Shown piece by piece: positions 102-24,428 of a stretch of DNA of 32,977 nt. Below the pieces are notes generated by a model that saw only the letters and a program-made list of their open reading frames with translations, was not told where the DNA came from and did no database searches. The position numbers and the translations under genes are program-made. Origin of the DNA: Thermoleophilia bacterium (GTDB lineage: Bacteria > Actinomycetota > Thermoleophilia > Miltoncostaeales > Miltoncostaeaceae); NCBI GenBank assembly GCA_017853415.1, contig JAFMJQ010000006.1:1-32977 (forward strand), read 5' to 3'. Every line of letters begins with the position of its first letter. Positions within the stretch are counted from its first letter, which is position 1.

Positions 102-2033
102 ATGGGCACGGAGCCGCTTCGCGATCAGCTCGCCGCGCTGCCCGACGCGCCGGGCGTTTACCTGTTCCGCGATGCGGACGACCGCGTGATGTACGTGGGC
201 AAGGCGAAGTCGCTGCGCAAGCGGGTGTTCTCGTACTTCGAGGCACCGGTGCGCGGCCAGGACGGATCGGGCGAGGGGCGCCCGGGGCCCAAGGCCGGGC
301 TGCACCCGCGCATCTCCGAGATGGTCTCGCGCGCCGGGCGCGTGGAGGCCCTGGTGGTGAACAGCGAGCAGGAGGCCCTGATCCTCGAGGGCAACCTCAT
401 CACCACCCACCGGCCGCCCTTCAACGTGAAGCTGCGCGACGACAAGAGCTACCCCTACATCGGCATCAGCCTCGACGAGGCCTACCCGCGCGTGTACTTC
501 ACCCGCGAGCGTCACCGCCGCGACCGGGTGTACTTCGGTCCGTTCTCGAGCGCATCGAAGGTGCGCGAGACGCTGTCGCTGATCGGCAAGATCTTCCCGA
601 GCAGGCCATGCGAGGGCTCGGAGCCCGGGCGCCCATCGGGCATCCCGTGCCTCGATTACCACATCAAGCGCTGCATGGCGCCGTGCGTCGACTACATCAG
701 CCTGCAGGACTACCGACACCTCATCGACCAGATCATCGCGTTCCTCTCGGGGCGCTACCGGGGCCTGGAGCAGGAGCTCGAGCAGCAGATGGCCGCGGCC
801 GCGGCCGCCCAGAGGTTCGAGGAGGCCGCGGTGTTCCGCAATCGCCTCAACGCCGTGCGGCACCTGATGGAGCGGCAGCTGATGAGCAGCGACTCGATGG
901 AGTCGCTCGACGTGCTGGGCGTGGCGGTGGACGACGACGGCGAGGCGGCCAACGTGCAGGTGCTGCAGGTGCGCGACGGCGTGCTGGGCGACCGGCAGTC
1001 GTTCTTCGTCGATGCCGCGGGGTCGCGCGATGAGGCGACGATCCTCGAGCAGTTCGTGATGGAGTACTACGCGTTGGGCATGGCGATTCCGCCGCTGGTG
1101 GTGGTGCCGCTGGGCATGGACACCCGTGGCGTGGAGGCCCTGCTGGCCGAGCGCCGGCAGGCCGGCGTGGAGGTGCGGGCATCGGAGCGCGGCGAGAAGC
1201 GCCGCATGCAGGAGCTCGCCGAGCGCAATGCCCAGCTGGCCCTCGACCAGGATCGCGCCCGGGCGGCCCGCACGCGCGAGCGGCGCACCGCGGCGCTGGG
1301 CGACCTGCAGCGCGCGCTGGGCCTGGACGCCCCGCCCATGCGCATCGAGTGCTTCGACATCTCGAACCTGGGGTCCACCTACGCCGTGGCGTCGATGACG
1401 GTGATGAACGGCGGGGCGCCCGACCGCAAGCACTACCGGTCGTTCACCATGCGGTACGACGGCGGACCCGACGACTTCGCGCGCATGGAGGAGGCCATCG
1501 GGCGCCGCATGGCCCGCCTGGCATCGGGCGACGCCGACGCCAGCCTCGGGGCCGCGCCGTCGCTGGTGGTGATCGACGGGGGCAAGGGCCAGCTGGGTGC
1601 CGCGCAGCGCGCGATGCGCGAGGCCGGCGTGGATGTGCCGATGGTCGGCCTCGCCAAGCAGCAGGAGGAGGTGTTCGTGCCGGGCCGATCGGAGCCGATC
1701 CTGCTGCCCGAGGGCTCTCCCGGCCTCACGCTGCTGCAGCAGGTGCGCGACGAGGCCCACCGCTTCGCCCTGCGCCACCACCGCTCGCGTCGCGGCCGGG
1801 GGATGACCGCCAGCGCGATGGACTCCCTCCCCGGCATCGGCCCGGCCCGCCGCCGGGCGATCCTGCGACACTTCGGATCGCCGGAGCGCTTCCTCGCCGC
1901 ATCGCGCGAGGAGATGGAGGCCGTGCCGGGGCTGCCGCCGAAGGTGGCACGCGACATCTACGAGCACCTCAACAAGACGGGCGGTCCCGACCAGGTCGAG
2001 ACCCTCGCGGGATCGGGCAACGGGTGGAGCTGA
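102..2033 (+). CDS. uvrC: Excinuclease ABC subunit C (UvrC)
   Basis: UvrC is the nuclease of nucleotide excision repair; it cuts both sides of a lesion bound by UvrB. The 643 residues carry, in order: a GIY-YIG nuclease (GVY at 18-20, YVG at 31-33, with the conserved glutamate region near 87-96); four cysteines (170, 183, 191, 195) spaced as in the [4Fe-4S] cluster reported for UvrC; a UVR helix pair for UvrB contact around 222-257; the RNase H-like second nuclease (CFDISN, then VVIDGGKGQL); and a C-terminal helix-hairpin-helix pair beginning near the LPGIGPARR motif. The GIY-YIG domain has a Gly/Pro-rich insert of about 20 residues near 50-67. An in-frame ATG at 48 would add 18 residues, but the -10 box at 90-95 would then lie inside the gene, so 102 is preferred. 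The last ten bases overlap rapZ. Confidence 0.96.
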   Translation: MGTEPLRDQLAALPDAPGVYLFRDADDRVMYVGKAKSLRKRVFSYFEAPVRGQDGSGEGRPGPKAGLHPRISEMVSRAGRVEALVVNSEQEALILEGNLITTHRPPFNVKLRDDKSYPYIGISLDEAYPRVYFTRERHRRDRVYFGPFSSASKVRETLSLIGKIFPSRPCEGSEPGRPSGIPCLDYHIKRCMAPCVDYISLQDYRHLIDQIIAFLSGRYRGLEQELEQQMAAAAAAQRFEEAAVFRNRLNAVRHLMERQLMSSDSMESLDVLGVAVDDDGEAANVQVLQVRDGVLGDRQSFFVDAAGSRDEATILEQFVMEYYALGMAIPPLVVVPLGMDTRGVEALLAERRQAGVEVRASERGEKRRMQELAERNAQLALDQDRARAARTRERRTAALGDLQRALGLDAPPMRIECFDISNLGSTYAVASMTVMNGGAPDRKHYRSFTMRYDGGPDDFARMEEAIGRRMARLASGDADASLGAAPSLVVIDGGKGQLGAAQRAMREAGVDVPMVGLAKQQEEVFVPGRSEPILLPEGSPGLTLLQQVRDEAHRFALRHHRSRRGRGMTASAMDSLPGIGPARRRAILRHFGSPERFLAASREEMEAVPGLPPKVARDIYEHLNKTGGPDQVETLAGSGNGWS

Positions 2034-2896
2034 CGATCATCACCGGCCTCTCGGGGGCCGGGAAGTCCGGGGCGATGGGCGCGTTCGAGGATGCCGACTT
2101 CTTCTGCATCGACAACCTCCCGCCGCAACTGCTGCCGTCGCTCGTCGACCTCTTCGGGCTCGAGGGCAGCAGCGTCGAGCGCGCCGCGCTGGTGTTCGAC
2201 GTGCGCGGCGGCGTGTGGTTCGACGAGCTCGCCCGCGAGCTCGACCGCATCGCGCAGATGCCCGACATCAACCTGAGCGTGCTGTTCCTCGAGGCGTCCG
2301 ACGACGTGCTGCTGGCGCGGTTCCGCGAGACGCGCCGTCGGCACCCGCTGGCCGAGGGGGGAGAGGTGCTGCGCGGCATCGAGAAGGAGCGCGCGCTGCT
2401 GCAGGACCTGCGCGACCGCGCGGACGTGGTGATCGACACCAGCGCGATGAACACCTGGCAACTGCGCGAGGCCGTGGCGCAGGAGATGCAGCCGGCCGAC
2501 CGCCCCCACATGCGGGTGACCTTCGCGTCGTTCGGCTTCAAGCACGGCGTGCCGCGCGAGGCCGACCTGATGTTCGACGTGAGGTTCCTGCGCAATCCGC
2601 ACTACGTGCCGGAGCTCACCGCGCTCACGGGCGAGGACGCCGCCGTGGCCGGGTATGTGGCCGAGGACCCGGGATACGAGGGATTCATGGATCGCCTCGT
2701 CGCCCTGCTCGACTACGTGCTGCCGCTCTACGCGGCCGAGGGCAAGCGGCACCTGGTGGTGGCCATCGGCTGCACGGGCGGCCGTCATCGCAGCGTCACG
2801 GTGGCCGAGGCCCTGGCCGCGCGCTATGCGCAGTCGCTCGACGTGACGCTGGCCCACCGCGACTCGGGCCGCCCGGCCGAGGTGAGGTCGGCGTGA
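2024..2896 (+). CDS. rapZ: RapZ/YvcJ family nucleotide-binding protein
   Basis: P-loop protein of the RapZ (YvcJ) family. In E. coli RapZ is an RNA-binding adaptor controlling GlmS levels; in Gram-positives the family binds and hydrolyses nucleotides and its target is less clear. The 290-residue protein starts with a Walker A motif (GLSGAGKS at 8-15). The C-terminal half has the family hallmarks FKHGVPREADLMFDVRFLRNP and IGCTGGRHRSV. The GTG start at 2024 lies inside the end of uvrC and directly precedes the P-loop strand (VELTIITG), matching the usual N-terminus; any earlier start would add unrelated sequence. Overlap with uvrC (10 bases) and yvcK (4 bases) implies translational coupling. 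The gene trio is common in Gram-positives. Confidence 0.94.
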   Translation: MELTIITGLSGAGKSGAMGAFEDADFFCIDNLPPQLLPSLVDLFGLEGSSVERAALVFDVRGGVWFDELARELDRIAQMPDINLSVLFLEASDDVLLARFRETRRRHPLAEGGEVLRGIEKERALLQDLRDRADVVIDTSAMNTWQLREAVAQEMQPADRPHMRVTFASFGFKHGVPREADLMFDVRFLRNPHYVPELTALTGEDAAVAGYVAEDPGYEGFMDRLVALLDYVLPLYAAEGKRHLVVAIGCTGGRHRSVTVAEALAARYAQSLDVTLAHRDSGRPAEVRSA

Positions 2897-9883: not shown

Positions 9884-10288
9884 ATGAGCACCCGCCCACA
9901 GGAATGGCTTCCCGATCCCTCCGGCCGCCACGAGCTGCGCTGGTGGGACGGCACGCGCTGGACCGAGCACGTGAGCGATGCGGGTGAGGCGTCCACCGAC
10001 CCCGAGGGCGAGCAGGGCAACCCGCCGCCGCCCCCGCGCGGATCCGAGCCCGGGGCCCCGCGCGAGCGCTCGGGGCGCGCCACGGCCTCGCTGGTGCTGG
10101 GCATCGTCGGGGTGCTGGTGTTCCCCGTGGTGTGCTCGACGCTGGCGATCATCTTCGGGGCGCTTGCCCTGCGCGACATCGGCGACCGCAAGGACATCGC
10201 GGGCCGCAACATGGCGTGGTGGGGCCTTGGCCTCGGCATCGCCGGGCTGGTCATCGGCATCGCGCTCATCGCCTACCGGTTCGCGTAG
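9884..10288 (+). CDS. DUF2510 and DUF4190 domain membrane protein
   Basis: 134 residues. The first 30 form a DUF2510 motif (EWLPDPSGRHELRWWDGTRWTEHV), a Trp-rich module frequent in actinobacterial membrane proteins. A Pro- and acid-rich linker follows, then two hydrophobic helices (LVLGIVGVLVFPVVCSTLAII and WGLGLGIAGLVIGIALIAY) separated by a charged loop, as in DUF4190. Function is unknown; the DUF2510 part is expected in the cytoplasm. It has no clear link to the glycolytic operon before it. Its TAG shares one base with the GTG of the next gene. Confidence 0.88.
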   Translation: MSTRPQEWLPDPSGRHELRWWDGTRWTEHVSDAGEASTDPEGEQGNPPPPPRGSEPGAPRERSGRATASLVLGIVGVLVFPVVCSTLAIIFGALALRDIGDRKDIAGRNMAWWGLGLGIAGLVIGIALIAYRFA

Positions 10289-10743
10289 TGGGCGCGGTCT
10301 CGGGGCGCATCAGCCTCAAGGGGGGATCGCCCGATGGCTATCGCGCCCTCGCCGGGCTCACGCGCGCCGGGCACCCCGACCACGCGCTTGCCGAGATCGT
10401 CAAGCTGCGTGCGTCGCGCATCAACAACTGCCGCTACTGCGTGGACTCCCACACCGAGGGGGCGCGCAAGGCCGGCGTGTCGGACGAGCGCATCGCGGCA
10501 ACGGCCGACTGGCAGGCATCGGAGCTCTTCGACGACCGCGAGCGTGCCGCGCTGGCCCTGGCCGACCTGCTCACCCGCACCGACGACCTCTCGCGTGCCG
10601 AGCACCCGGCGGCCGCGCCCGTGTGGGACACCGCCGCCGAGGCGTTCCCCGGTGACGAGCTGGTGCAGCTGGTCATCACCATCGCCGGCATCAACACCTG
10701 GAACCGGATGATGATCGCGGAGGCCGTCAGCACCGGGGAGTGA
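10288..10743 (+). CDS. AhpD-like carboxymuconolactone decarboxylase family protein
   Basis: 151-residue member of the CMD/AhpD family. The sequence LAEIVKLRASRINNCRYCVDSHTEGARKAG contains the AhpD active site: a glutamate, the redox pair CxxC and a histidine four residues later. Such proteins act as thiol-dependent alkylhydroperoxidases or reductants, though substrates are seldom known. The GTG at 10288 overlaps the preceding TAG, indicating coupling. The C-terminal half (IAGINTWNRMMIAE) is also typical. No dedicated partner such as ahpC is in the window. Confidence 0.9.
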   Translation: MGAVSGRISLKGGSPDGYRALAGLTRAGHPDHALAEIVKLRASRINNCRYCVDSHTEGARKAGVSDERIAATADWQASELFDDRERAALALADLLTRTDDLSRAEHPAAAPVWDTAAEAFPGDELVQLVITIAGINTWNRMMIAEAVSTGE

Positions 10744-10781: not shown

Positions 10782-11015
10782 TCAGCCCACGCGTATGAGC
10801 GACGTGATGACATCGCGTCGCTGCTCCATCGAGAGCACCTCGTGCCCGGCGTCGTGACACCAGGCGGGAAGGTCGAGGAACACCATCGGGTCGTCGGCCA
10901 GCACCTCGAGCACCTCGCCGGGTGCCATGGCGGCGATGGCGTCGCGCGCCATGGTGACCGGCACCGGGCACCAGGTGCCCAGGGCGTCCACCGACCTGGC
11001 GGGCGGGGTGCTCAT
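10782..11015 (-). CDS. TusA/SirA-like sulfur carrier protein
   Basis: 77-residue member of the TusA family, small proteins that carry persulfide sulfur on one cysteine. The hallmark CPxP is present (LGTWCPVPVTMARDAI, Cys at about residue 16), with the expected second half (GEVLEVLADDP, AWCHDAGHEVL). TusA normally receives sulfur from a cysteine desulfurase and passes it to tRNA-thiolation, molybdopterin or dissimilatory sulfur enzymes; none of those targets is nearby. The ATG overlaps the stop of the NifS-like gene by four bases, so the two are made together. The odd point is that this partner lacks the residues needed to release sulfur from cysteine. Confidence 0.9.
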   Translation of the reverse strand: MSTPPARSVDALGTWCPVPVTMARDAIAAMAPGEVLEVLADDPMVFLDLPAWCHDAGHEVLSMEQRRDVITSLIRVG

Positions 11016-12151
11016 GCGGGGGCCATCCCGCGCAGGGCCCGCACGGCGTCGCCGAAGGCGGCGACCGCCTCCGCGACCTCGGCATCGGTGGTCGCGGGCC
11101 CCGCCGTCAGCAGCACGGCCGAACGGGCGGAATCCTCGTCGAGCCCCATGGCCTGGAGCACGGGCGACGCCTTGCCCGCGCCGAACGTGCACGCGGATCC
11201 CGGCGACACCGCCACGCCACGCGCCGCCATCGCGAGCGCCACGGCCTCGCCCTCCACGCCCTCGGCGCATACCTGCACGTGGCCCGGCAGGCGGTCGTCC
11301 ACCGGCGGTCCGTTCAGGCGGGTGCCCGGCACGGCCAGCAGGCCATGTGCCAGCGCGGCGGCCTGGCGGCGCATGTGGGCGGCACGCGCAGTGCCCTCGG
11401 CGCGGGCCTCGCGCGCGGCCGCGCCGAGGGCGGCGATGCCCGGCACGTCGTGGGGCCCGCCGCGCTTGCCGCCCTCCTCGAGCCCGCCCTCGATCACCGG
11501 GTGCAGCCGCGTGCCGGGACGCACCAGCAGGGCCCCGGTCCACGGCGGGGCGCCGAGCGTGCGCCCGCCGATCACCAGCAGGTCCGCGCCCAGGGCGTCG
11601 TCCAGGGCCATCAGGCCGGCGGTCTCCTCGGCGTCCAGCACGATCACGGCCTCGGGCGCCGCACTGCGCGCTGCGGCCACCAGCGCGGGGACATCCTGGA
11701 CGGTGCCCACCTCGGGCTGTCCGTGGGTGATCAGCACCAGGTCGCCGGTGGCCCCCCCGAGGTCGGCGGGGGAGACCCGGCCAAGGCCATCAACCGGCAC
11801 GAGGTGCAGGTGGCCACCGCGGCGGGTGAGCGTGCGTGCGACGGCCAGCGACGACGCGTGCGCGAGGGGGTCGGTGACGATCACGGGCGCGCTGCCCCCG
11901 GTCGCGGCCAGCGCGCCCTTGATTGCCAGGTTGCGGGCCTCGGTGGCGCCCGCCGTGAAGATCACGCACTCGGCGGGCCACCCCGTGACGGCCGCCAGCT
12001 CCTCGCGCGCCGTTGCGATGGCGTCCGCCGGCCCGCGCGCGGCCTCGTGCAGCGCCATGGGACTTCCCACGTGCCCGGTCCAGCGCTCCATCTCGGCGCG
12101 TACCGCATCGGAGAGCGGCCAGGCCGAGGCGTGGTCGAGGTAGGCCGTCAC
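11012..12151 (-). CDS. NifS/IscS-like class V aminotransferase-fold protein lacking the PLP lysine
   Basis: 379 residues with the full cysteine-desulfurase layout: LDHASAWPLSDAV at the start, FTAGATEARN, histidine 98 (DPLAH), aspartate 173 (VLDAE) that would hold the pyridine nitrogen, and cysteine 321 in the loop SPGSACTFG. Three residues needed for PLP chemistry are replaced. The Schiff-base lysine, expected in a motif like SxHKxxGPxG, reads GGRTLGAPPWTG, so Thr198 is at the lysine site (codon 11558-11560). The substrate-carboxylate arginine (…RxSLG…) is Leu347 in AVLLTAGPATT. The NN of the usual HxNNE reads QP. The reading frame is intact throughout, so this is not a simple pseudogene. The GTG start overlaps the upstream stop (GTGA); the stop overlaps the tusA-like ATG. 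It may be a pseudoenzyme using Cys321 as a sulfur or persulfide relay; that is inference. Confidence 0.85.
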   Translation of the reverse strand: MTAYLDHASAWPLSDAVRAEMERWTGHVGSPMALHEAARGPADAIATAREELAAVTGWPAECVIFTAGATEARNLAIKGALAATGGSAPVIVTDPLAHASSLAVARTLTRRGGHLHLVPVDGLGRVSPADLGGATGDLVLITHGQPEVGTVQDVPALVAAARSAAPEAVIVLDAEETAGLMALDDALGADLLVIGGRTLGAPPWTGALLVRPGTRLHPVIEGGLEEGGKRGGPHDVPGIAALGAAAREARAEGTARAAHMRRQAAALAHGLLAVPGTRLNGPPVDDRLPGHVQVCAEGVEGEAVALAMAARGVAVSPGSACTFGAGKASPVLQAMGLDEDSARSAVLLTAGPATTDAEVAEAVAAFGDAVRALRGMAPA

Positions 12152-12885
12152 CGGCCCTCCGCCAGGCGCGCGCCGAGTTCGGCGGGCAGGCCCGCCACCT
12201 GGATGGCGTTCTGCGCCCCGGGCACGTCGTAGGGGGTGCGCCTGAACCTGAGGGTGAGGGCCTCGAGGTCGAGGATCGCCCACGAGGCACGCGGGTCGAG
12301 GTCGCGCGGCTGGCCCACCGAGCCGGGGTTGATGAGCCACCTGCCGGACTCGATCGAGATCGTCTCCTCGCCGCGCACGAGCCCGCCGTCGAGGCGGCCG
12401 TCCTCGCCCAGGCGCCACGCGCCCGCCAGGTGGGTGTGGCCGATCAGCATGATGCGCGCGGGGTGCGCGTCGAAGGCCGCGCGCGCCTGGTCGCCGTTGA
12501 TCACGTATTCCCAGATGGGGTCGCGCGGGCTCGCGTGGAACATCGCCACCTCACCATCGGGGTCCTCGGGCTCGAGGGCCATGAGGCGGTCCAGCGAGTT
12601 GCGGTCGAGCCGCGTGCGCGTCCACTCGATGGCGGCGCGTGCATGCGGGGTGAACTGCTCGGCGCGCACCCGGCCGGCCGCGGCCAGGTCGTGGTTGCCC
12701 GCGATGCAGCGCTCCGACTCGGTGACGCACACGCGCAGGCATTCCGCCGGGTGCGCTCCGTAGCCCACCATGTCGCCGAGGCACCAGGTGCGCGAAACGG
12801 ACGCCTGGCGGATGGCGCGGCGGACGGCCTCGAGCGCGTGGCGGTTGCCGTGGATGTCGCTGATGATGGCGATGCGGTCGCTCAC
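12148..12885 (-). CDS. Calcineurin-like metallophosphoesterase (YfcE/MJ0936 type)
   Basis: 245-residue metallophosphoesterase. All five motifs of the dinuclear metal centre are seen: DIHGN near residue 10, GDMVGYG, GNHD, a histidine in FHASP and GHTH, followed by INPGSVGQPRD. Relatives are YfcE-like phosphodiesterases of unclear physiological substrate. The GTG start at 12885 is 19 bases from the divergent rlmH start. It is the first gene of a coupled three-gene operon with the NifS-like and TusA-like genes. Whether it works with them or is only co-transcribed cannot be read from the sequence. Confidence 0.92.
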   Translation of the reverse strand: MSDRIAIISDIHGNRHALEAVRRAIRQASVSRTWCLGDMVGYGAHPAECLRVCVTESERCIAGNHDLAAAGRVRAEQFTPHARAAIEWTRTRLDRNSLDRLMALEPEDPDGEVAMFHASPRDPIWEYVINGDQARAAFDAHPARIMLIGHTHLAGAWRLGEDGRLDGGLVRGEETISIESGRWLINPGSVGQPRDLDPRASWAILDLEALTLRFRRTPYDVPGAQNAIQVAGLPAELGARLAEGR

Positions 12886-19415: not shown

Positions 19416-21487
19416 GGTCGGCCATCTACACCGGCACGCTCATCCACGCACGGCGCACGCCGGCCGAGCACGTGTTCCGCTACCCGGTGTGCTTCTACGC
19501 GATCGACCTCGACGAGATCCCGGAGCTCGACCGGCGACTGAGGCTCTTCTCGTACAACAAGCCGGGCGTCGTGACCCTGCGCGATTCCGACCACCTGGGC
19601 GACCCCGAGCGCCCGGTGGCCGAGAACATCCGCGCGCACCTCGAGGAGCGCGGAATCGCCGCGGCCGATGCCCGCATCACCATGCTCACCAACCTGCGCG
19701 TGGCGGGGTACGTGTTCAACCCGGTCACCTTCTTCTACGTGCACGGGCCCGGTGGCGAGCTGCGATGCATCCTCGCCGAGGTCAGCAACACCTTCGGCGA
19801 GCGGCTGCCGTACCTGCTCACCGACGCCGAGCGCATCGAACCGCTCAATGGCGAGCACGCCTTCCGCCACGACAAGCGCATGCACGTGTCGCCGTTCTTC
19901 CCGATGGACCAGGAATACATCTTCCGCATGGGGGAGCCGGGCGAGACGCTGGACATCCGCATGGACGTGCTGCAGGACGGCGAGCGGCCCTTCTGGGCGC
20001 AGCTCACCGGCACGCGGCAGCATCTGGACGACCGGGCGCTGGCCCGCGCCCTGGCGCGGTATCCGCTGATGCCCCTGCAGGTGATCTCGTTGATCCACGT
20101 CGAGGCGCTCCGCCTCTGGAGGAAGCGCGTGCCGTTCCACAGGAAGCCGAAGTTCGTGCCCTCCGAGGGCTCGGTCACCACGGCCCCCGATGCCGCCGGC
20201 GCCGGCGGCGTGGCCCGCGACCGCGGACTGCGACCCATTCCCGAGGCCGGCCGCTCGCCCTTCACCCCGGTGGCGAAGGCGCTGGCCATGCGCGGCCTGC
20301 GCAACCCCTCGGGCGGGTGGTTCGAGCTCGCGATGCCCGACGGCTCGGTGCATCGCATGGGCTCGCCGGCCAACGGCCCGCGGTTCGCGCGGGTCACGGT
20401 GACCGGCAAGGACTTCTTCCGGCGCATCGCCCGTCGCGGTCGCGTGGGGTTCGGCGAGGCCTACCAGGCCGGCGACTGGACGGCGGACGACCTGCCGGCG
20501 TTCCTGGAGATCCTCGCGCTCACCGCCGAGGACGTCCGCCGCCGCCCGCCCGCATCGCTCGTTCCCGCGGCCATCGCCAAGCGCCCGCGCCTGCCCAACC
20601 CGGCCGACCTGGTGCGCGCCCGGCGCGACGTGCGGTACCACTACGACCTCGGCAACGACCTCTACGAGGCGTTCCTCGACCCATCCATGACCTACTCGTG
20701 CGCGTACTTCGAGCACGAGGGCCAGTCGCTCGAGGACGCCCAGCAGGCCAAGTACCGGCGCCTCTGCGAGAAGCTGCGCATCGGGCCCGACCACCACGTG
20801 CTGGAGGTCGGATGCGGCTGGGGCGGGTTCGCCATGCACGCCGCCCGCGAGCGCGGCTGCCGCGTGACCGGCATCACGCTGTCCACCGAGCAGGCGGCCG
20901 AGGCCCGCCGCCGCGTGGACGAGGCCGGCCTGTCGGACCGCATCGACATCGTCATCTGCGACTACCGGCAGATGCAGGGCGCCTACGACCGCATCGTCTC
21001 GATCGAGATGATCGAGGCCGTGGGATACGACGGGCTCACCACGTACTTCGCCAACCTCGACCGCCTGCTGGCACCCGGCGGGGTCATCGGCATCCAGGCC
21101 ATCACGGTGCCCGACCAGCGGCTCGAGCGCTATCGCAGGGGCACCGACTGGATTCGCGAGTACATCTTCCCGGGCGCCTTCTGCCCGCCGCTGGCGTCGA
21201 TGGTGGATGCCATGCGCACGTCATCCGAGCTGCAGGTGGAGGGCATCGAGAACATCGGCATCCACTACGCCGACACGCTGCGCCTGTGGCGCGAGCGGTT
21301 CATGGGCAATGCCGACCGCGTGCGCGAGCTGGGATTCACGGATGAGTTCATCCGCACGTGGGAGTTCTACCTGGCCTTCTGCGAGGCGGGATTCCGCACG
21401 CGGGCGCTCGGCGACCTGCAGATGGTGATCAGCCGCCCGTACAACGCGGCGCTTCCCACCACCCCCGAGCCCCGGCTGAGCCTCTAG
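19412..21487 (+). CDS. DUF1365–cyclopropane-fatty-acid-synthase fusion protein
   Basis: One 691-residue protein joins two families usually encoded by adjacent genes. Residues 1-240 are DUF1365 ([57 protein letters not shown]), of unknown function. A variable linker spans about 250-285. Residues 286-680 are a SAM-dependent cyclopropane-synthase-type methyltransferase: [27 protein letters not shown] with Cys430, the SAM loop [12 protein letters not shown] (463-474), CDYRQM and Glu535 in SIEMIEAVG. The position of E. coli His266 (LLHTIG) is Gln562 (GIQAIT), as I recall for the branch clustered with amine-oxidase genes. It should methylate or cyclopropanate unsaturated phospholipid acyl chains. 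Start: GTG at 19412 gives the GTGA overlap; GTG at 19409 is also possible. Confidence 0.9.
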
Positions 21488-21897
21488 GACTCCCCCGGCG
21501 CGTCGCGGCCGTCGAAGTCGAGCGATGCCGAGTTGATGCAGTAGCGCATGCCCGTGGGGCCCGGGCCGTCGGGGAACACGTGGCCCAGGTGGGCGTCGCA
21601 GGCAGCGCAGCGCACCTCGATGCGGCGCATGCCGAACGAGCGGTCCTCCACCTCGGTGATGGCGTCGGGCGAGATGGGGGTGACGTAGCTCGGCCAGCCC
21701 GTGCCGGAGTCGAACTTGTGGGACGAGTCGAAGAGCGGCGCCTCGCAGCAGATGCAGCGGTAGATGCCGTCGTCGTGGTGATCCCAGTAGATGCCGGTGA
21801 ACGCCGGCTCGGTGCCGGCCTCGCGGGTGACGTGGTACTGCATGTCACTGAGCTTGGCGCGGTACTGGTCGTCGTCGGGTCCCGGTGTGCGTGCCAC
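21484..21897 (-). CDS. msrB: Peptide methionine-(R)-S-oxide reductase
   Basis: Reduces the R form of methionine sulfoxide in proteins. The 137 residues carry both zinc CxxC pairs (CICC and CAAC), [18 protein letters not shown] and the catalytic cysteine in [11 protein letters not shown]. The GTG at 21897 follows GGAGGA with a four-base gap (SD at 21902-21907), which decides the start. In-frame upstream codons to 21960 would cross the promoter. Its TAG stop and the TAG of the fusion gene on the other strand lie in the same palindromic CTAG (21484-21487). Confidence 0.95.
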
Positions 21898-21901
21898 AAA
21901 A

Positions 21902-21941
21902 TCCTCCGATTCGCGCGGGGGCCGGTGGACCCGTGATGATA
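21902..21941 (-). promoter_or_regulatory. msrB -10 box and Shine-Dalgarno site
   Basis: On the minus strand TATCAT (21936-21941) is a near-consensus -10 box. GGAGGA (21902-21907) is a strong SD sequence four bases before the GTG. The leader would be about 30 bases. This gene is thus of the SD-led type. Confidence 0.6.
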
Positions 21942-21967
21942 GGGGCAGTCGGCCCGCCATCCGGTGC

Positions 21968-21973
21968 TACCGT
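21968..21973 (+). promoter_or_regulatory. -10 box of ccmE, leaderless type
   Basis: TACCGT is followed by eight bases and the GTG at 21982. The ATG at 21964 lies before this box and is rejected as a start. Confidence 0.45.
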
Positions 21974-21981
21974 CGGATGTC

Positions 21982-22437
21982 GTGAAGTCACGCTCCCGTT
22001 TCGCAATCGCCCTGACCCTGGCCGTCGCGCTGGGCGGATGGCTCATCTGGACGAGCATCGGCGGCAGCATGGAGACCTACACCAGCCCCGCGGGCCTGGT
22101 GAAGTCCGACGGCACGACCTACCGCCTCAACGGCAAGGTGGCCCCGGGCAGCCCCGCCGACGCCGCCGAGCGGGCCCAGACCGCAGCCGGCCTGAGGTTC
22201 GTGGTGCGCGACAAGGAGCGCCCGTCGGTGACCGTGCCGGTGGTGTACCGCGGAAGCGTGCCCGACGCCTTCAAGGACGGCCGCGAGATCGTGGTGACCG
22301 GCCACATGGAGAACGGCGTGTTCCAGGCCGAGCGCGGAACGCTCATCACCCTGTGCCCGTCGAAGTTCATGCAGGAGGCGGCGGAGCAGGGCAAGCAGAT
22401 GCCGGGCGGCGTTCCGAAGGATTCCACGGGCACGTGA
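21982..22437 (+). CDS. ccmE: Cytochrome c maturation heme chaperone CcmE, cysteine type
   Basis: 151-residue CcmE, the membrane-anchored heme chaperone of System I cytochrome c maturation. An N-terminal anchor (FAIALTLAVALGGWLIW) is followed by the OB-fold: YTSPAGLV, YRLNGKV, LRFVVRD, VPVVYRGSVPDAFKDGREIVVTG. In the classical protein heme binds covalently to the histidine of a HxxxY motif. Here the aligned segment reads LITLCPSKFMQE, with Cys125 in place of His and Phe129 in place of Tyr. Cysteine-type CcmE (CxxxY) is known from archaea and some bacteria; the Phe makes this a further variant. The stop overlaps the ccmF start (GTGA). Confidence 0.92.
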   Translation: MKSRSRFAIALTLAVALGGWLIWTSIGGSMETYTSPAGLVKSDGTTYRLNGKVAPGSPADAAERAQTAAGLRFVVRDKERPSVTVPVVYRGSVPDAFKDGREIVVTGHMENGVFQAERGTLITLCPSKFMQEAAEQGKQMPGGVPKDSTGT

Positions 22438-24428
22438 CGCTCGTCGGTCGCGCAGCGCTCCTGCTGGCGTTCGCGGCCGCCCTCTATGCGGTGGGCGCAG
22501 CGCTCTGGTCGCGACGCAAGGGCCGGCGGGAGTTCCTGGCGTCGGCCGAGCGCGGCGTGTGGGCGGTGTTCGCGGCCACCACCACGTCGGTCGTGGTCAT
22601 GTGGACGCTGCTGCTGTCCGACCGCTTCGACGTGGCCGACGTCGCGGGCTACTCCAACCGCACGCTGGGCTGGCGCTACAAGATCACCGCGCTCTGGGGC
22701 AGCCAGGCCGGCTCGCTGCTGCTGTGGATGTGGTTCCTGTCCATCGCGGCCGTGCTCGTGGTCATCACCAACCGCAAGCGCAACCGCGCCCTCATGCCGG
22801 TGGTGGTGGCGGTGCTCATGGGCATCGCCGTGTTCTTCACCAGCGTGCTGTCGTTCATCACGAGCCCGTTCGAGACGGTGTCGCCGGTGCCGGCCGACGG
22901 GCGCGGGCTCAACCCGCTGCTGCAGAACCCCTACATGGAGAGCCACCCCCCGCTGCTCTACGTGGGCTACGTGGGCCTGTCGATCCCCTTCGCGTTCGCC
23001 ATCGCGGCGCTGGTGACCCGGCGCCTCGACTCGACGTGGATCACCTCGATACGGCGCTGGACGATCCTCTCGTGGATGTTCCTGACGATCGGGATCATCC
23101 TCGGGTCGCGCTGGGCGTACGAGGAACTCGGCTGGGGTGGCTACTGGGCGTGGGACCCGGTGGAGAACGCCGCGCTCATGCCGTGGCTCGTGGCCACCGC
23201 CTTCCTGCACTCGGTGATGGTGCAGGAGCGCCGGGGGATGCTGCGCATCTGGAACATGGTGCTGGTGATCCTCACCTTCACCCTGGCCCTGTTCGGGACG
23301 TTCCTCACGCGCTCGGGGATCCTCTCGTCGGTGCACGCGTTCGGCGAGAGCACGCTCGGGCCGTACTTCCTGGCGCTCATCGTGGTGGTGCTTGCCGGAT
23401 CGTTCGCGCTGCTCATCAGCCGCCTGTCGGCGCTGCGCAGCGAGAACTCGCTCGAGAGCTACATCAGCCGCGAGGCGATCTTCCTCTACAACAACCTGTT
23501 GCTGGTGGGGCTGGCCTTCGCGGTGTTCTGGGGCACGATGTTCCCGGTGCTGTCGGAGGCCGTGCAGGGACAGAAGATCACGGTGGGGCAGGGGTTCTTC
23601 AACCAGGTGGCGGCGCCCATCGGACTCGCACTGCTCTTCTTCACCGGCGTGGGGCCGCTGATCCCCTGGCGCAAGGCGTCCCCGCGCGAGCTCCGCCGCC
23701 GCTTCGCGTGGCCGCTGGTGATCGCCGCGATCGCGGTGATCCCCGCGCTCTACTTCGCCCAGGAGGGCGCCCACTGGTGGGCGGCGGCGGCAATCGTGCT
23801 CGGCGCCTTCACGATCGCCTGCATCATCGGCGAGTTCTGGCGGGGCATGAAGGTGCGCCACCAGCTGGGCGGCATCTCGTGGCCGGGCGCCCTGGGCCAG
23901 CTGCTCACGCGCAACCGGCGCCGCTACGGCGGGTACATCGTGCACCTCGGCGTGGTGTCGATCATCGTGGCCATCGCCTGCCAGGGGGCCTTCTCCACGC
24001 AGGGCGACCTCGCGCTTCGCACCGGCCAGACCGGCGAGGTTGCGGGATACCAGTTCACCAACGAGGGCGGCACGCGCTCGCGCGACGACCACAAGATGAG
24101 CGTGGGCGTGGCGCTCGGGGTGTCGGAGGGCGGCAACCGCTTCGCCACCCTCAACCCGGGCGTGGACGTCTTCACCGCGCAGATGCAGCGCTCGAGCGAG
24201 GTCGCGGTGGACACCTCGCCGTTCCGCGACGTCTACGTGGTGCTCGTGGGGCTCACGCCGGACGGCCTGGCGCGCATCAGCGTGTTCATCAACCCGATGA
24301 TGATGTGGATCTGGGTCGGGGGCATCGTGATGGTGCTCGGGTCGCTCATCGCCGTGTGGCCCTCGCGGCGGCGACGCGAGGCCGTGGCCCCCGCGGCGGC
24401 GGGGGCTGACGGCCGCGTGCGCGAGTAG
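22434..24428 (+). CDS. ccmF: Cytochrome c heme lyase CcmF
   Basis: 664-residue polytopic membrane protein that receives heme from CcmE and attaches it to apocytochrome c outside the membrane. About 14-15 hydrophobic segments are visible. The heme-handling WWD signature reads WGGYWAWDPVENAALMPWL, preceded by the conserved NPLLQNPYMESHPPLLYVGYVG and followed by TRSGILSSVHAFGES. The C-terminal periplasmic domain and last helix (MMMWIWVGGIVMVLGSLIAVWPSRR) are present. GTG start at 22434 overlaps the ccmE stop. No ccmA, B, C, D, G or H lies in the window, so the remaining parts must be elsewhere. Confidence 0.95.
   Translation: MTLVGRAALLLAFAAALYAVGAALWSRRKGRREFLASAERGVWAVFAATTTSVVVMWTLLLSDRFDVADVAGYSNRTLGWRYKITALWGSQAGSLLLWMWFLSIAAVLVVITNRKRNRALMPVVVAVLMGIAVFFTSVLSFITSPFETVSPVPADGRGLNPLLQNPYMESHPPLLYVGYVGLSIPFAFAIAALVTRRLDSTWITSIRRWTILSWMFLTIGIILGSRWAYEELGWGGYWAWDPVENAALMPWLVATAFLHSVMVQERRGMLRIWNMVLVILTFTLALFGTFLTRSGILSSVHAFGESTLGPYFLALIVVVLAGSFALLISRLSALRSENSLESYISREAIFLYNNLLLVGLAFAVFWGTMFPVLSEAVQGQKITVGQGFFNQVAAPIGLALLFFTGVGPLIPWRKASPRELRRRFAWPLVIAAIAVIPALYFAQEGAHWWAAAAIVLGAFTIACIIGEFWRGMKVRHQLGGISWPGALGQLLTRNRRRYGGYIVHLGVVSIIVAIACQGAFSTQGDLALRTGQTGEVAGYQFTNEGGTRSRDDHKMSVGVALGVSEGGNRFATLNPGVDVFTAQMQRSSEVAVDTSPFRDVYVVLVGLTPDGLARISVFINPMMMWIWVGGIVMVLGSLIAVWPSRRRREAVAPAAAGADGRVRE

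Follow-up and report, generated by a model that had tools for sequence, protein, structure and literature searches.

Locus structure and genomic context

The DNA analysed here (the window) is a 32 977 nt stretch of a Miltoncostaeaceae MAG (Thermoleophilia, Actinomycetota). It contains a minus-strand cluster of a Metallophos_2 phosphoesterase gene, an open frame with a GTG start encoding a 379 aa protein of the NifS/IscS fold (hereafter psNifS) and a gene for a TusA-like sulfurtransferase. psNifS overlaps each of its two neighbours by 4 nt. An AhpD-like gene lies beside the operon, and MsrB plus CcmE/CcmF-like genes lie further on; these were named by eye from the sequence, and represent other redox or thiol functions in the same window. 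The coordinates of all features are collected in Table 1.

Table 1. Coordinates of the psNifS locus, its diagnostic codons and loci of related interest
Location	Strand	Feature	Remarks
Window 11012..12151	-	psNifS, lysine-less NifS/IscS-fold protein	379 aa, GTG start
Window 11558..11560	-	psNifS codon 198	Thr; PLP lysine K206 in E. coli IscS
Window 11111..11113	-	psNifS codon 347	Leu; R354 in E. coli IscS
Window 11189..11191	-	psNifS codon 321	Mobile-loop Cys; C328 of IscS
Window 11171..11173	-	psNifS codon 327	Lys; Glu/Asp in most active IscS (E334)
Window 10782..11015	-	TusA-like sulfurtransferase	77 aa, CPxP motif
Window 10968-10970	-	TusA codon 16	Cys of the CPxP motif
Window 12148..12885	-	Metallophos_2 phosphoesterase	Upstream of psNifS
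Window 10288-10743	+	AhpD-like gene	
Window 21484-24428		MsrB plus CcmE/CcmF-like genes	
Locus L111 (genome G000, contig C48), 1714 to about 3210	-	MnmA with N-terminal NifU_N/SufU-like domain	One open frame
Locus L109 (genome G013), 1649-2616		Clean loss of psNifS between TusA and phosphoesterase	Diverged TusA
Locus L143, 5639-8056		Lys-less IscS with Rrf2 regulator, DrsE_2 protein and TusA	Family f51; no IscU hit

psNifS has lost the PLP lysine and the substrate arginine

The psNifS protein matches PF00266 over its length (121 bits), but falls far below the NCBIfam desulfurase cut-offs, the best score being 208 bits to TIGR03402 against a cut-off of 531. Alignment to solved IscS proteins confirmed the residues described in the first-pass annotation: His98, Asp173 and Cys321 (within SPGSAC) are kept, Thr198 and Leu347 occupy the sites of the PLP lysine and the substrate-carboxylate arginine (R354 in the numbering of PMC9978102), and the usual NNE reads QPE. 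Further PLP contacts are also gone, with Q183 replaced by E176, S203 by G195, H205 by R197 and T243' by P233.

These changes are not explained by chance or sequencing error. In Miltoncostaeaceae, the lysine is absent in 34/34 sequences, the arginine is Leu in 33/33 and the loop Cys is kept in 33/33, whilst 26 Lys-intact relatives show K in 26/26, R in 26/26 and C in 26/26. The contacts Q183, S203, H205, T243' and N155 have been lost as well. It should be noted that Thr198 itself is not conserved (S10, T9, A8, P6, C1), whereas Leu347 is invariant. No other conserved lysine replaces the missing one. The only strongly conserved lysines of the family, K229 and K327 (the latter Lys in 33/33), align with M239 and E334 of E. 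coli IscS, corresponding to the partner-binding surface and the end of the Cys loop, and were rejected as a PLP site on the basis of alignment, without dimer coordinates.

Median dN/dS in the genus is 0.24, against 0.31 for TusA and 0.14 for the phosphoesterase, indicating purifying selection. AlphaFold2 predicted an IscS fold with a pLDDT of 93, in which only the loop segment 322-324 fell below 50. The best Foldseek hits were Archaeoglobus fulgidus IscS D199K (4r5f) and wild type (4hvk), with TM 0.91-0.94, and VIA-align gave Z 48-49 to Nfs1 and IscS with an rmsd of 1.6-1.9. Public MAG records titled 'Bifidobacterium breve' (loci L070 and L073) and 'Acidobacteria' (L069) also carry the Miltoncostaeaceae operon, and are probably mislabelled.

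TusA is the constant neighbour of psNifS

TusA directly follows psNifS in all 31 family genomes where the 3' end is not cut by a contig end, and it is nearly always the only TusA in the genome. The window TusA matches PF01206 (68 bits). In contrast, the phosphoesterase is a looser partner: it was not found in genomes G020 and G026 and is present in other families without psNifS, so we did not consider it an essential partner.

Genome G013 (96% complete) is the one complete-looking genome that has lost psNifS, and represents a natural knock-out. Only SufS answers a search with psNifS, and TusA abuts the phosphoesterase. The G013 TusA breaks four of 18 columns invariant in the other 34 family TusAs (L12T, V18E, P19V, A51D), while no other sequence breaks more than one; CPVP is invariant in those 34 and changed only in G013. 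The G013 TusA is only 65% identical to that of the window, although the phosphoesterase is 84% identical. V18 appears to correspond to E21 of E. coli TusA, which contacts IscS, and IscS C328 lies about 4 Å from TusA C19 in that complex (PMC2854127). However, G013 is a single case, and the E. coli TusA-binding residues of IscS are not kept in psNifS (W45 is R39, D52 is A46 in the window protein, and R220 is P212). This signature neither supports nor excludes contact, which is therefore inferred.

The genome also holds a suf operon (sufB, sufD, sufC, SufS with an intact HK motif, and sufU), and a SufS match was found in every family genome searched. psNifS is therefore the only IscS/NifS-type protein found, and active desulfuration can come from SufS. 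MnmA carries an N-terminal NifU_N/SufU-like domain in one open frame; the same pairing of PF01592 and PF03054, in one frame of about 490-550 aa, recurs in several Thermoleophilia families (designated f1, f4, f5, f6 and f7).

Lysine-less IscS proteins of other Actinomycetota

A profile of the clade was run over 296 Actinomycetota genomes, and many of the next-best matches also lacked the lysine. Of 79 non-redundant NifS/IscS proteins with context, 27 have L/Q/M/G and four have D at the lysine site; all 31 lack the arginine and keep the Cys, whilst all 48 with Lys keep Arg and Cys. TusA lies within 4 kb on the same strand in 30/30 judged Lys-less loci against 4/43 Lys-intact ones, the four all belonging to family f6. 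MnmA shows the opposite pattern (0/25 against 19/45). These counts are not independent of phylogeny, and the Fisher p values were not corrected for shared descent. Several genomes hold both kinds of protein with TusA beside the Lys-less copy only (for example G074, G133, G172, G231, G251 and G330).

Most other Lys-less loci also carry IscU next to the gene (29 of 31 counted), some carry DsrE and at least two an Rrf2 regulator. In many Actinomycetota families the Lys-less IscS is followed by IscU and TusA, some with DsrE, an Rrf2 regulator or a zinc-ribbon protein (loci L145, L146, L147, L149, L158, L161 and others), whereas L143 represents a second IscU-free lineage. In Thermoleophilia families f2 and f4, loci L118, L119, L120 and L062 carry a TusA-DsrE-IscS-IscU/NifU operon with Asp at the lysine site of IscS, kin of A. 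fulgidus IscS. At L142 (contig C91 of genome G314) a Lys-less NifS is interrupted by an in-frame TAG, reflecting a pseudogene or an assembly error. Two loci of family f6 (L056 and L060) have a Lys-intact NifS domain at the end of open frames of 1164 and 1227 aa, a possible fusion.

The Miltoncostaeaceae clade is monophyletic (100%), and so is the Asp type with A. fulgidus IscS. With all columns, the clade and the other TusA-linked Lys-less proteins share one side of a 99/98 branch. With active-site columns removed, it sits instead near Lys-intact, MnmA-linked enzymes of family f19 (support 87). AU tests rejected neither placement, and one to three losses of the lysine are possible.

A proposed PLP-free partner of TusA

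The residue losses, retention of the Cys loop, predicted fold, purifying selection, constant TusA neighbour and change in TusA when psNifS is lost lead us to favour, with moderate confidence, the hypothesis that psNifS is a pseudo-cysteine-desulfurase: an IscS-fold dimer kept as a thiol/persulfide platform for TusA. Unable to form the PLP-lysine aldimine, the protein very likely lacks desulfurase activity. E. coli K206A IscS has no desulfurase activity (PMC9978102), and A. fulgidus IscS with Asp in place of Lys is also inactive (PMC7585200). We infer that the mobile-loop Cys321 exchanges persulfide sulfur with Cys16 of the co-translated TusA, in the geometry known for IscS-TusA; in this model, the sulfur must come from another source (SufS/SufU, or inorganic sulfide/polysulfide via TusA). 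It should be noted that operon neighbours need not interact, and that in family f6 a Lys-intact IscS also sits beside TusA. Our analysis supports the suggestion of the first-pass annotation, which did not mention TusA, that the protein is a repurposed pseudoenzyme rather than a decaying gene. Of the two functions it proposed, persulfide handling on Cys321 is favoured because TusA is the constant partner, whilst regulation of a true desulfurase has no specific support.

Other explanations were considered. It is possible, though doubtful, that Cys321 serves as a ligand of an Fe-S cluster or metal on a partner, as proposed for A. fulgidus IscS, which gives a Cys ligand to the [2Fe-2S] cluster on IscU (PMC7585200) and is the best sequence and Foldseek match to psNifS. 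The presence of IscU at most other Lys-less loci is consistent with such a role. However, no IscU gene was seen next to psNifS in Miltoncostaeaceae, where the NifU_N proteins are the SufU of the SUF operon and the domain fused to MnmA, and TusA carries sulfur and no cluster in known cases. A regulator or decoy of SufS, or of the SufU/MnmA sulfur route, for example by sequestering TusA, is conceivable given that an active desulfurase is at hand, but appears unlikely: it would not explain the invariant Cys321 and the re-made loop (K327, G326), SufS is type II and does not share the IscS loop, there is no linkage to the suf operon, and SufS is also present in G013, which lacks psNifS.

Less likely still is an enzyme that holds PLP or another cofactor without a Schiff-base lysine and processes cysteine or another thiol by a different chemistry. 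K206A IscS retains some PLP and slow partial chemistry (PMC9978102), and His98 and Asp173 are kept in psNifS, so weak PLP binding is possible; nevertheless, the equivalents of R354, Q183, S203, H205 and T243' were lost together with K206, and no conserved lysine lies in the pocket by alignment. Gene decay, or an assembly or sequencing artefact, is very unlikely. Although the gene was lost in G013, and is dispensable in at least one species, and its dN/dS is higher than that of the phosphoesterase, the frame is open across the family under purifying selection, with 37 invariant columns, and is found in genera assembled independently, including one single-contig genome (G030).

More tentatively, we speculate that lysine-less IscS proteins form a widespread class of PLP-independent sulfur-transfer platforms working with TusA. 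Sulfur would probably run from TusA (charged from inorganic sulfur, DsrE or SufS) onto the IscS loop cysteine and, where IscU is present, on to Fe-S assembly, the reverse of the E. coli relay. Lysine loss may have arisen more than once, each time beside TusA. The near-perfect tie between lysine loss and a tusA neighbour makes a testable case that IscS-fold proteins can serve as cofactor-free sulfur handover partners, which bears on how cells, including anaerobes, feed sulfur into Fe-S clusters or thiolation without cysteine desulfuration.

Comparison with known systems

Lys-less IscS is already known from archaea. What appears to be undescribed, amongst the open-access papers searched, is the strict TusA linkage of Lys-less IscS proteins across Actinomycetota, together with the family-wide fixation in Miltoncostaeaceae. 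A. fulgidus IscS (IscS2; PDB 4eb5, 4eb7, 4hvk; D199K mutant 4r5f) shares with psNifS the IscS fold, the missing PLP lysine, Leu at the Arg354 position and the loop Cys, and is reported to be without desulfurase activity. It differs in having Asp at the lysine site, in keeping residues such as S203 and in its IscU partner, and lies in a separate clade with the TusA-DsrE-IscS(D)-IscU loci of Thermoleophilia families f2 and f4. Methanosarcina acetivorans IscS1, an archaeal protein paired with IscU1, is also reported to lack the catalytic lysine (PMC7585200).

psNifS shares the loss of Lys and Arg, the retained Cys, Lys at the E334 position and an adjacent TusA with the TusA-linked Lys-less IscS of other Actinomycetota. 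The actinobacterial IscS encoded next to SufU/IscU and MnmA (family f19 loci L155, L171, L185 and L190) is possibly the closest Lys-intact kin when active-site columns are left out, and shares Lys at the E334 position, but has K206 and R354 intact and is adjacent to MnmA, with no TusA. psNifS is not a member of the cysteine desulfurases by their defining residues, and is proposed to work most like a stripped IscS in an IscS-TusA relay. E. coli IscS with TusA (PDB 3lvj) has the same fold (Z 48.3, 1.9 Å over 370 residues), the loop Cys and a partner of the TusA gene family; however, E. coli IscS is an active PLP enzyme that donates sulfur to TusA, and its K206, R354, Q183, H205 and TusA-binding residues are not kept in psNifS.
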